From Ignavibacteriota bacterium (GTDB lineage: Bacteria; Bacteroidota; Ignavibacteria; SZUA-365), in the NCBI GenBank assembly GCA_016218045.1, contig JACRFB010000059.1, positions 1 through 64,000 on the forward strand: 64,000 nt of DNA, given 5' to 3'. The position numbers and the translations under genes were made by a program. Below the pieces are notes generated by a model. That model ran no database searches and was not told where the DNA came from. It was given only the letters and a program-made list of their open reading frames with translations. Position 1 is the stretch's first letter. Each line of letters begins with the position of its first letter. This document shows positions 52,538-58,040 of the stretch, in pieces.

Positions 52538-52909
52538 ATGCGCACAGTAAAAAAAATCCTCGTTGTTGGTGATCGTGTACTGATTTCACCGGAAGACCCG
52601 AGCGGAATGACCAAGTCCGGACTCTACCTGCCTCCGGGGGTGCAGGAGAAAGAAAAGATACAGGGCGGCTATGTGGTGAAAATCGGACCCGGATATCCGA
52701 TTCCAAACCCCGACGCAAGCGAGGAGCCCTGGGCGCCGCGGCGCGAACCGATCCGCTATCTCCCCCTGCAGGTGGAGGAAGGCGACTACGCCCTGTTCCT
52801 CCGTTCGCAGGGTGTGGAATTGGAATTCGAGGGTACACAGTACCTGGTCGTCCCGCAGGCGGCAATACTCGTACTGGTGAGACAAGAGCTGGTGGAAGAC
52901 ACGGACTGA
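52538..52909 (+). CDS. GroES-like co-chaperonin (orphan, no GroEL nearby)
   Basis: A 123-aa Cpn10-fold protein: VGDRVLISPEDPSGMTKSGL and YLPPGVQEKEKIQGGYVVKI are the opening strands and mobile-loop region of GroES, GPGYPIPNPD sits where the roof follows, and the last part ends EGTQYLVVPQAAILVLV as GroES does (usually VMSESDILAIV). It is about 25 residues longer than normal GroES, with a central insertion near residues 57-85. No groEL is within reach, so it may be a regulatory paralogue. The start has no ribosome site; the leader is CTCCTAG repeat. It sits 214 bases before hoxE. Confidence 0.85.
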   Translation: MRTVKKILVVGDRVLISPEDPSGMTKSGLYLPPGVQEKEKIQGGYVVKIGPGYPIPNPDASEEPWAPRREPIRYLPLQVEEGDYALFLRSQGVELEFEGTQYLVVPQAAILVLVRQELVEDTD

Positions 52910-53027
52910 GATGCGGCGCAAGGCACGGATCTGCCGTGCCTGAGGATGTGGCGGGTGCGGGGAGTAGAACCCGTTTCGAGAGAATTTTCACTATAGGGAG
53001 GCGCCGGACTGAACCGCCACAAAACGC

Positions 53028-53058
53028 TTGGATATTTATCGTCCGATGGGTACATTTC
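53028..53058 (+). promoter_or_regulatory. Candidate hox promoter
   Basis: TTG (53028-53030), 20 bases, TACATTTC (53051-53058): seven of eight positions of the Bacteroidota TAnnTTTG element. Expected start point near 53064, about 60 bases before hoxE. Confidence 0.5.
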
Positions 53059-53070
53059 GTGATAGGTAAT

Positions 53071-53086
53071 CGAGAAATATTTCTCG
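53071..53086 (+). promoter_or_regulatory. Perfect 16-bp palindrome, possible hox operator
   Basis: CGAGAAATATTTCTCG, fully self-complementary, lies 37 bases before the hoxE ATG and just downstream of the predicted start point: the position of a repressor operator. The regulator is not known. Confidence 0.55.
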
Positions 53087-53123: not shown

Positions 53124-53648
53124 ATGCCCACATTAGCCGAAGAGCGGGAAAAACTCAAGAAGCCCGAGGCGAAATCGAACGATAACAGATTCAAGTATCT
53201 GGATCGTGCGCTCGCCAAGCACCATTTCCGCGGTGATGCATTGATCGAGATACTGCACACGGCGCAGGAACTGTTCGGCTTTCTTTCGCAGGATCTGCTT
53301 CTGTACATCGCGAAGAGTCTGCGCCTGCCGCCGAGCAAGGTGTACGGTGTCGCGACGTTTTACCACTTCTTCTCGCTCAAACCGAAGGGCGAGCACACGG
53401 TGACGATCTGCATGGGCACGGCATGTTACGTGAAGGGTGCGGGAGCGCTGCAATCGGCCGTAGAACATCTCTGCAAGTGCCGCGCGGGCGAAACAACCGC
53501 CGACGGCAAGGTGTCGGTGCAGACCGCTCGCTGCGTCGGATCCTGCGGCATCGCGCCTGTGGTTGTGTACGACAATGACGTCGCACCGAATGTCGGTCCG
53601 GAGGAAATCACGGCCCGTGTGGCCGCCTGGCTGGAGACAACACCATGA
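53124..53648 (+). CDS. hoxE: Bidirectional [NiFe] hydrogenase, HoxE (NuoE-like) subunit
   Basis: A 174-aa thioredoxin-fold 2Fe-2S protein. Cluster ligands: [13 protein letters not shown] and, 35 residues on, [12 protein letters not shown] (C-X4-C...C-X3-C). In HoxEFUYH hydrogenases it passes electrons within the diaphorase module. First gene of the operon; its stop overlaps hoxF by 4 bases (ATGA, 53645). No clear Shine-Dalgarno. The HoxE versus plain NuoE assignment rests on the whole operon. Confidence 0.93.
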
Positions 53649-55372
53649 CTATCGACGAACTATACGAGATCGGACAGAATTTCCGTCGCTCCCTCGAGTC
53701 GTTCAGCGCGGAGATCCACGTCTGCGGGTCCGGCGGCTGTTTCTCGTCCGGCGGCATGCAGATCAGGGAAGCGCTCGAGCAGGCCTGTGCCGCGCGTAAT
53801 CTCGCCTCGGACGTGCGTATCATCAGCACGGGGTGTATGGGCTTGTGCGGCGCGGGACCGCTGGTGCGCATGCATCCGTCGAACACGCTGTACGTCAAGG
53901 TCACACCCGCCGACGCCGATCGCATCGTCGAACAGCACCTCGTCGGCAACACACCCGTGGCGGATCTTGCACATCCCACCGACACGCCCTTCTTCACAAA
54001 GCAGACGCCGATAGCCCTGAAAAACATGGGACACATCGATCCGGAATCGATCGACGACTACATCGGGCACGGCGGATACGAGGCGCTCGCAAAGGCCATC
54101 ACCTACTACACGCAGGACGGCGTGATCCTCGAGGTGCGTTCCAGCGGACTGCGCGGCCGCGGCGGCGCGGGATATCCGACAGGGCTGAAGTGGAGCATCG
54201 TGCGCAAGGTGAAATCGAACCAGAAGTACGTCGTGTGCAACGCCGACGAGGGCGATCCCGGCGCGTTCATGGACCGCGCGATGCTCGAAGGCAATCCGCA
54301 CGCGATCCTCGAGGGCATGGCCATCGCAGGATACGCCGTCGGCGCGACGCAGGGCTACATCTATGTGCGCGGCGAGTATCCTCTCGCGATCGAGCGCCTC
54401 AAGAAGGCCATCAAGCAAGCCGAACGCACACAGATGCTCGGCAACAGGATCTTCGACTCCGAATTCAACTTCCGTATCGACCTGCGCATCGGCGCGGGCG
54501 CGTTTGTGTGCGGCGAGGAGACGGCGCTGATGGCCTCGATCGAGGGACGGCGCGGCCAGCCGCGTCCGCGTCCGCCGTATCCCTCGCAGTCGGGTCTCTG
54601 GGGCATGCCCACGCTGCTTAACAATGTCGAGACCTACGCCAACGTTCCCGCCATCATCCTCAACGGCGGCAAGTGGTTCGCGGGCATCGGCACCGAAAAG
54701 AGCAAGGGAACAAAAGTGTTCGCGCTCGCCGGACGCATCAAGAACACGGGACTCATCGAAGTGCCGATGGGCATATCGCTACGTGAAATCATCTTCGACA
54801 TCGGCGGCGGCATTCCCGACGGCGGCGAGTTCAAGGCGGCCCAGACGGGCGGTCCCTCAGGCGGATGTATTCCCGCCCAGCATCTCGACATCCCGGTCGA
54901 CTACGAGTCGCTCGCACAGGTCGGCTCGATCATGGGATCGGGCGGACTGATCGTGATGGACAAAAGCTCGTGTATGGTGAAGCTCGCGCAGTACTTCATG
55001 GAATTCTGCATGGACGAATCCTGCGGCAAGTGCATCCCCTGCCGCGTCGGCACCGTGCAGCTCCATAAGGTGCTCGAGCGCATGACACAGGGACGCGCCA
55101 GCATGGAGGATCTCGGCATACTCGAGGAACTCTGCGACATGGTCAAGGACACGAGTCTCTGCGGACTCGGCCAGACCGCGCCGAATCCCGTCGTCAGCAC
55201 ACTGCACTTCTTCCGCAAGGAATACGAAGACCACATACACGCACACGTGTGCGACGCGGGCGAATGCACGGCCCTCGCCGCGGCTCCAGCGCCCGAGCCG
55301 CCTTCCGCGCCAGCAGAAAAAACCACCGCAGCCAAGACCAAGCCGGGACGGAGGTCCAATGGAAGAGATTAA
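53645..55372 (+). CDS. hoxF: Bidirectional [NiFe] hydrogenase, HoxF (NADH/FMN) subunit
   Basis: A 575-aa NuoF-like diaphorase. The N-terminal thioredoxin-like 2Fe-2S part ([22 protein letters not shown]) precedes the FMN/NADH core: [50 protein letters not shown], and the 4Fe-4S site [16 protein letters not shown]. It oxidises or reduces NAD(H). After the last domain there is an Ala/Pro/Lys-rich tail of about 40 residues ([20 protein letters not shown]) of no known function. It overlaps hoxU by 14 bases; the GGAGG for hoxU lies within the tail. Confidence 0.95.
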
Positions 55373-56078
55373 AACCCTCACCATCGACGGCGAGATCATC
55401 AGCGCGCCGGCGCACGCCACCATATTGAGCGCCGCGTTCGAGAATGAGCTACACATCCCGACGCTGTGCAATCTCGAAGGCCTCGACGCCGTCGGCGCGT
55501 GCCGCCTCTGCCTCGTCGAAATCGACGGACAGAACAAACTGCAGCCCGCCTGCACCACGCGCATCGAGGAAGGCATGGTGGTGAACACACGCTCGGCGCG
55601 CATACAGAAGTACCGCCGCATGATCGTCGAAATGCTGTTTGCAGAGGGCAACCACATCTGCTCGGTCTGCGTGGCCAACGGGCATTGCGAACTGCAGAAC
55701 CTCGGCTACGAAGTCGGGATGGACTCGGTGCGCTTCGATTACCTGTATCCCGCGAAGAAGGTGGACGCGACACACGAGCGCTTCATCATCGATCACAATC
55801 GCTGCGTGCTCTGCACGCGCTGCGTGCGGGTCTGCGACGAGATCGAAGGCGCGCACACCTGGGACGTCGCGGGCCGCGGCATAGGCACCTTCGTCGTGAC
55901 CGACCTCGCCGGCGACTGGGGCCGGAGCGGCTCCTGCACTTCGTGCGGAAAATGTGTGCTCGTCTGTCCGACTGGCGCATTGTTCGAGAAGGGAAAAGCG
56001 GTGAGCGAGATGACCAAGAACCGCGATTTCCTCCAGTACATCGTGAACGCGAGAGAGAAAAAACAATGGCTAAAATAA
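55359..56078 (+). CDS. hoxU: Bidirectional [NiFe] hydrogenase, HoxU (NuoG-like) subunit
   Basis: A 239-aa electron-transfer subunit with an N-terminal plant-type 2Fe-2S domain ([20 protein letters not shown] then ACTT), a His/Cys 4Fe-4S segment ([18 protein letters not shown]) and two ferredoxin-type 4Fe-4S clusters ([30 protein letters not shown]). It links the HoxEF diaphorase to the HoxYH hydrogenase. GGAGG is 4 bases before the ATG at 55359; the stop overlaps the start of hoxY by 13 bases. Confidence 0.95.
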
Positions 56079-56599
56079 AAATCGCCACGGCCTGGCTCGG
56101 CGGCTGCTCGGGCTGCCACATGTCGTTCCTCGACCTCGACGAGCGGCTCATCGATCTGCATGGACGCGCCGAACTGGTGTACAGTCCGATCATGGACGTG
56201 AAGGTGTTCCCCGCGGGTGTCGACGTGACGCTGGTGGAGGGCGCGGTGGCGAACAGCGACAATCTCGAACTGTTGGAAACGATACGCCGCAACAGCCGCA
56301 TCCTTGTGGCCTTCGGCGACTGCGCCGTGACGGGCAACGTGACGGCGATGCGCAACGGACTCGACCGCGACGAAATTCTGCGCGACGTGTACGGCGAACT
56401 GGGTGTCACCTTTGGGAAACAGGACGGTACCGTGCTGCCCGTGCTGCACGAATCCGTGACGCCCATTCACAAAGTCGTTTCTGTCGACGCCTACCTGCCC
56501 GGCTGTCCGCCCGACGCGGATCTCATCTGGTACGTGATCACGGAGCTGCTCGAAGGCAGGCAGCCCGTTCTAACCGAGGACCTTCTGAAATATGGCTAA
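56066..56599 (+). CDS. hoxY: Bidirectional [NiFe] hydrogenase, small subunit HoxY
   Basis: A 177-aa small subunit; the ATG at 56066 lies within the end of hoxU. Proximal 4Fe-4S ligands are seen in [30 protein letters not shown] and [14 protein letters not shown] (C-X2-C, C, C). No signal peptide, so the enzyme is cytoplasmic, as in group 3d hydrogenases. The short length, without medial and distal cluster domains, also fits HoxY. Overlaps hoxH by 8 bases. Confidence 0.95.
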
Positions 56600-58040
56600 G
56601 CCCACCCGACAGATCGTGATCGATCCAGTGACGCGGATCGAGGGACACGCGAAGATCACCGTCCACTTCAACGACCAGGGTGCGGTGGAAGACGCGCGCA
56701 TCCACATCACCGAATTCCGCGGTTTCGAAAAATTCTGCGAAGGCCGGCTCGTGTGGGAAATGCCCGGCATCACGTCGCGCATCTGCGGCATCTGCCCTGT
56801 CAGCCACCTGCTCACCTCGGCGAAGGCGGGCGACGACATCCTTGCCGTTGAGATTCCCCGGCCCGCCGAGAATTTGCGCCGAGTGCTGAATCTCGCGCAG
56901 TGGGTGCAGTCGCACGCGCTCAGTTTCTTCCATCTCTCCGCGCCCGACCTGCTGCTCGGCTTCGACGCCCCGCCGGAGAAACGCAGCATCTTCGGACTCG
57001 CCGAGGCGCACCCCGACTTCGCGCGCCGCGGCATACGGCTGCGCAAATTCGGGCAGGACGTCATCGAAAAACTGGGCGGCAGGAAAATCCATCCCGTGTA
57101 CGCCGTGCCCGGAGGTGTGCGCGCACCCCTCTCGGAGGCGGTGCGCGACGAGATCCTCGCGGGCCTTCCCGAGGCCCACGACACCGCCGCCATGGGCCTC
57201 GAGTTCATCAAGGCCTTCATCGAAACCAATCACGGCAAGCTCGACGTGTTCGGCAATTTCCCGACACTGTTCCTCGGGCACGTGACGGGCGACGGTGCGC
57301 TCGAGTACTACGACGGATTCATCCGCGTCGTCGACAGCGGCGGCAACATCGTGGCCGACCGCCTCGATCCCCGCAAGTACAACGACTACATCTCCGAGGC
57401 CGTCGAGGAGTGGTCGTACCTCAAATTCCCCTACTACGCGCCGCTCGGGTATCCGCAGGGCAACTACCGCGTGGGTCCGCTGGCGCGACTCAACGTGTGT
57501 TCGCACACGGGGTCGCCAAAATCGGATCGCGAACTCCTTATCTTCAAGCAGATGGCCGGCACGCGCAATGTGGTGCTGAACTCGTTCTACTACCACTACG
57601 CGCGCATGATCGAAATCCTCTTCGCGCTCGAGCGTATGGAGGAACTGCTCACCGACCCCGACACGCTGAACCAGGAAGACATCCGCGCGAGGGCCTTCTC
57701 GAACAAACCGCACGGCGTCGGCGCCTGCGAAGCGCCGCGCGGCACACTCTTTCACAACTACACGGTGGGACGCGACGGCGTGATCAAAAAGGTCGATATG
57801 GTGATCGCGACGGGACAGAACAACCTCTCGATGAACCGCACCATCCGGCAGATCGCCATGCACTACATCAGCGATCCCGAGACCGAGATCACCGACGGCA
57901 TACTCAACCGCATCGAGGCAGGCATCCGCTGCTACGATCCCTGCCTCTCGTGCTCGACACACGCGCTCGGACAGATGCCCTTCGAGATCGAATACCGCGG
58001 ATCCGACGGCACGCTGCTCAAGCGCGGAGGACGCGGCTGA
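56592..58040 (+). CDS. hoxH: Bidirectional [NiFe] hydrogenase, large subunit HoxH
   Basis: A 482-aa catalytic subunit. The four Ni/Fe cysteines lie in the N-terminal motif [14 protein letters not shown] and the C-terminal motif [10 protein letters not shown]. The chain continues 24 residues past the motif ([16 protein letters not shown]...), so maturation by a HoxW-type protease cutting after the His is expected, but no hoxW or hyp gene is in the window. Also present: [12 protein letters not shown] and [10 protein letters not shown]. Reaction: reversible H2 oxidation coupled to NAD(P)+. A separate promoter candidate follows for the next gene, so the operon probably ends here. Confidence 0.97.

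Follow-up and report, generated by a model that had tools for sequence, protein, structure and literature searches.

A putative Rex operator in front of the hoxEFUYH hydrogenase operon of an Ignavibacteriota bacterium

The window analysed here, a 64-kb stretch of an Ignavibacteriota genome, carries a hoxEFUYH operon on its forward strand. The proteins of two genes score above their NCBIfam equivalog cut-offs: that of the first gene, hoxE (53124-53648), reaches 243.7 bits with the HoxE model NF005747 (cut-off 224), and that of hoxU (55359-56078) 393 bits with the HoxU model NF005745 (cut-off 333). Between them lies the diaphorase gene hoxF (53645-55372), whose NuoF-like product matches the expected NuoF family (TIGR01959, E = 8.8e-152), with a score below the cut-off of this model, which is normal for a HoxF. 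The gene of the large [NiFe] subunit, hoxH (56592-58040), also matches the expected family, namely [NiFe] hydrogenase large-subunit models (VhuA, E = 7.7e-112). The small [NiFe] subunit gene hoxY (56063-56599, start estimated) was named by eye, with no family-model basis, from the C-terminal part of an open reading frame ending at 56599. Upstream of hoxE are found a gene for a PhoH2-type protein and then, between it and hoxE, a gene for a GroES-like protein of 123 amino acids (52538-52909). Other genera of the family (G032 and genus g2) share the order PhoH2, GroES-like, hoxE.

The palindrome CGAGAAATATTTCTCG, a perfect Rex-type inverted repeat with an N4 spacer (CGAGAA-ATAT-TTCTCG), occupies positions 53071-53086, with no strand assigned, and 37 bp separate it from the hoxE start at 53124. 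It is preceded by a Bacteroidota-type promoter, TTG-N20-TACATTTC, predicted from the sequence on the forward strand (53028-53058; TTG at 53028-53030, TACATTTC at 53051-53058). The two elements lie about 20 bp apart, in agreement with the Bacteroidota-type TANNTTTG (TTG-N19..21), and are kept at orthologous promoters; the last base in the window is C, not G. A sigma-70 scan found nothing, and no sigma-54 promoter was found at the hox operon of the window. The first-pass annotation had described both the 16-bp palindrome and the promoter, and they are present as described. It also considered that the site is not an Fnr/Crp box. Direct reading of the sequence bears this out: the site resembles TTGAT-N4-ATCAA in being a palindrome with an N4 spacer near a promoter, but the core sequence differs.

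The promoter and operator were searched for together in related genomes as TTG-N20..22-TANNTT followed by GAGAA-N4-TTCTC, with the four central bases freed. The pattern has one match each in 11 of the 12 genomes of the family, with no control matches. Outside the family, 13 of 276 genomes of the class have a match vs. approximately 10 control matches, which is the background level. The Fisher test of the family against the rest of the class gives p ~1e-12, but this value and the family counts are indicative, since the genomes are related and do not represent independent events. The site is followed by hydC in nine of the 11 family genomes and by hoxE in the other two (the window genome and G081); a match outside the family, in G113, also precedes hydC. 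The hyd operon includes an 'NADH-dependent [FeFe] hydrogenase, group A6'. The hydC promoter of the window genome itself carries ATGAGAATAATTTCACAA, two changes away from the published 18-bp Rex consensus. This site was revealed by a genome-wide search with the canonical consensus at up to three mismatches, a search that was otherwise too noisy.

At the hox promoters, the site is found in six of eight family genomes, the window genome included, if G032 with its degenerate left half is counted. It reads CGAGAATTTTTTCTCG in G081, CGAGAAATATTTCCCG in G101, GGAGAAATATTTCCCG in G061, and AGAGAATTTTTTCCCG in G001. Among other genera, the closest hox in conserved synteny is that of G032 (HoxE 74%), and its promoter keeps CTTG-N20-TAnATTnCG and the right half TTTCTCGTT, the left half being degenerate and the offset 23 bp. 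No site was found at the hox promoters of G012 and G042. In other Ignavibacteria families, no perfect palindromes of at least 12 bp occur at a comparable place upstream of hox. Recurrence of the site in front of hox in relatives and in front of other genes, which the first-pass annotation had proposed to look for, was found within the family, the other genes being hydCBA.

A close variant of the operator also stands before rex wherever the order has this gene (13 of 13 genomes), so that recurrence before a regulator gene, likewise suggested earlier, is seen as well. These sites read TGTGAATTTCTTCTCT in the window genome, CGTGAAAATGTTCTCG in G032, and CGTGAAATAGTTCTCT in G108. The half-sites differ, with GTGAA at the rex promoters vs. 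GAGAA at hox and hydC. In the four g3 genomes, the rex-promoter sites are CGTTGAT...TTCTCG or TTCACG, two mismatches off, with no recognisable promoter element. Apart from these four, every listed site is preceded by TTG-N20/21-TANNTT; in the family, this promoter is conserved upstream of the operator at hox and hydC and at the majority of rex genes. Outside the order, the regions upstream of rex in other Ignavibacteria families (L268, L270, L275, L279) also show palindromes with CG ends, for example ATCGATAAATATTTATCGAT and ATAGAGAATTTTTTCTCGAT, which suggests that the change at the ends may extend to the whole class.

Rex is encoded by a single gene in the order (PF06971), which in the genome that contains the window (G000) lies on contig C45. 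The protein reaches 215 bits with the equivalog model NF003994 (cut-off 130) and matches a solved Rex structure, PDB 3wg9, with E = 9e-37. It has the GxGxxG NAD motif and keeps Arg48 and Lys49 within VRKD. In its wing, RGRQNQGY, reading against the Thermotoga maritima numbering places Gln60-Asn61 where the T. maritima protein has Arg60-Gly61.

The Rex operator consensus is TTGTGAA-N4-TTCACAA (Ravcheev 2012, in the form quoted in PMC6391272 and PMC5317091). Compared with this quoted form, the window site shares the inverted repeat, the N4 spacer, and the GNGAA/TTCNC core, and the family sites likewise stand at rex itself and at NADH-linked or hydrogenase promoters. The outer TTG/CAA, however, is replaced by TCG/CGT, and the two half-sites at hox and hydC are both GAGAA. 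TCGAGAAATATTTCTCGT has five mismatches to the quoted 18-bp consensus, from which the rex-promoter sites of the lineage deviate too. The TTG/CAA ends are a consensus and no absolute requirement: the operator bound by T. maritima Rex departs from them as well. That operator, crystallised with Rex (TM0201, ATTTGAGAAATTTATCACAAAA), carries a GAGAA half (PMC8836258), so a half-site of this kind can be bound by Rex. Arg48 and Lys49, both conserved in the Rex studied here, are the key contacts in the T. maritima protein and read G5 and G7/A8 (PMC8836258). Unlike the window site, the T. maritima operator is asymmetric (GAGAA/TCACA) and has AT-rich flanks.

Among known regulatory systems, Rex of Caldicellulosiruptor bescii is a repressor of its own gene and of hydrogenases of the FeFe and NiFe types (PMC6391272). 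The types of targets are the same, but the NiFe target in this member of the Firmicutes is Ech, not the NAD-linked HoxEFUYH. Cyanobacterial hoxEFUYH, an operon of the same kind with redox-linked control, is governed by cyAbrB1/cyAbrB2 and RpaA (PMC13421787); these regulators and their sites are unrelated to those of the window. The open-access literature that was searched nowhere describes hox as being under the control of Rex, which does not prove that no such description exists.

In general, these data suggest that the palindrome is very probably an operator of Rex, which would repress hoxEFUYH at low NADH/NAD+. The probability is high because close variants stand at the same spot before hydrogenase genes and rex across the family. 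That the operator itself is real is firmly supported by comparison with relatives, and the evidence, which includes the likeness of the window site to the rex-promoter sites in a weight-matrix ranking given below, argues strongly for Rex as the putative protein bound there. In which direction Rex would regulate and what a second site, described below, would do we infer. We call the site a Rex-type operator variant with putative Rex binding, since the core, the N4 spacing, the position, the presence of rex in the genome, and the like site before rex all agree with a Rex operator, the TTG/CAA ends being the exception. The first-pass annotation expected a redox-linked repressor other than Fnr/Crp and left it unnamed. 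Its expectation is supported by the recurrence at hydCBA, rex, and hox, and the name can now be supplied: the different repressor is most likely Rex.

The site could alternatively be a real operator bound by another repressor that also controls rex. This would account for CGAGAA-N4-TTCTCG lacking the TTG/CAA ends of the Rex boxes as quoted in PMC6391272. Nevertheless, it seems improbable, because the spacing and the GNGAA core equal those of Rex boxes, the operator crystallised with T. maritima Rex has GAGAA, the variant occurs at all 13 rex promoters, and the targets are typical of Rex.

A chance palindrome with no function is very improbable, even though palindromy alone is weak evidence: the 64-kb window contains three perfect 16-bp palindromes vs. 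about two expected from Markov shuffles, although only 0.003 are expected in the 214-bp hox intergenic region. The 4.77-Mb genome contains the exact 16-mer only once, and its four genomic copies at two mismatches seem to be mostly coding. The recurrence check suggested by the first-pass annotation therefore fails for the exact 16-mer and succeeds for the relaxed form, CGAGAA-N4-TTCTCG. The exact scan is uninformative because it over-specifies the centre, where the four bases form a free spacer. The relaxed form is significant once promoter context and relatives are taken into account. Counts of YGWGAANNNNTTCWCR alone (18 matches vs. 1 control in the same genome) were left out of the evidence since most matches look coding. 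Two results speak against chance: across the family, the site recurs in front of hydrogenase operons with the same promoter context, and an independent weight matrix ranks it at the top. The input of the matrix was limited to sites at the rex promoters of other genomes, and neither hydrogenase sites nor any sequence of the window genome contributed. The matrix places 53071 first in the window with 21.8 bits, a score reached in none of 40 shuffled windows, whose maxima were at most 19.3 bits. An RNA hairpin in the 5' leader, acting as an attenuator or stability element, can be practically dismissed: the palindrome does lie within the presumed transcript leader, but the predicted fold lacks the hairpin of the palindrome itself and has an ordinary energy (z = -1.19), no T-run follows, and the rex-promoter site nearly abuts the -7 element (1-6 bp), so that it could hardly be transcribed in full.

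The same matrix ranks second in the window, with 16.3 bits, a probable auxiliary operator, CGAGAG-AATT-TTCACT (CGAGAGAATTTTCACT, 52977-52992, no strand assigned). It lies in the same intergenic region as the primary operator, 94 bp (9.0 helical turns) upstream. A comparable pair is seen at hox of G081, where the second site, CGAGACTTTTTTCACG, is 103 bp upstream. The primary operator lies just downstream of the promoter at hox, as is expected of Rex operators, which overlap the promoter or directly follow it. Its offset behind TANNTT is 14 bp in the window and 14, 4, 4, 6, and 23 bp at the other hox promoters, 10-14 bp at hydC of the family, and 1-6 bp at rex. At nearly all promoters, the distance from the -7 element is therefore 1-6 or 10-14 bp, which corresponds to the same face of the helix. 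At a 10.5-bp repeat, the offsets cluster on one helical face with a Rayleigh p ~1e-6 if the promoters were independent, which they are not. A repressor bound at this position would block initiation or early elongation.

Several other loci of the class were noted. Sigma-54-type -24/-12 elements lie upstream of hoxE at the f14 loci L016, L017, L022, L026, L027, and L029 and at L015 (f19); such elements, e.g., TGGCATGCCTGTTGCA and TGGCACACACATTGCG, occur with at most one mismatch in six of seven f14 loci. Given these elements in other families, hox seems to have come under more than one control system within a single class. In the window genome, the intergenic CGAGAATTAATTCTCA (G000:C40:227148-227163; L178, L259) marks another candidate target of this operator type, and the genes behind it form a carboxyltransferase/biotin carrier/Na+-transporting decarboxylase beta subunit cluster. 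Near-canonical Rex boxes, TGTGAAATTTTTCACA at G022:C17:20750 (L190) and TGTGAATTTATTCACG at G052:C32:11108 (L206), lie between two genes, one encoding a histidine kinase and the other, divergently oriented, a protein with a ferredoxin domain that looks like an [Fe] hydrogenase homologue.

We propose the following mechanism for control by Rex, the NADH/NAD+-sensing winged-helix repressor encoded once in the genome. At low NADH/NAD+, transcription of hoxEFUYH would be blocked by a Rex dimer bound to CGAGAA-N4-TTCTCG directly behind the -7 element, where it would probably cover the transcription start. The site 94 bp upstream perhaps assists Rex, so that the two hox sites would cooperate. When NADH builds up, it would bind Rex, which leaves the operator; the hydrogenase would then be made and NADH re-oxidised with H2 release. 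Rex would switch the NADH-dependent [FeFe] hydCBA operon and its own gene in the same way. A broader proposal is possible, but we hold it only tentatively. Rex and its operators in the order may have changed together, the protein acquiring the Gln60-Asn61 wing and the sites their CG...CG ends. One re-specified Rex might then tie two unrelated NADH-linked hydrogenases, the [FeFe] HydCBA and the [NiFe] HoxEFUYH, to a single redox switch. At hox, the two phased operators could hold the DNA between them in a loop, and hox of other Ignavibacteria families might depend on sigma-54-like promoters.

The analysis provides hoxEFUYH of a largely uncultured class with a specific candidate regulator. If Rex does repress the operon until NADH rises, then Hox in these bacteria would serve to vent electrons as H2 rather than to take up H2. 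In addition, a lineage-specific operator consensus would make the NADH regulon of these genomes readable.
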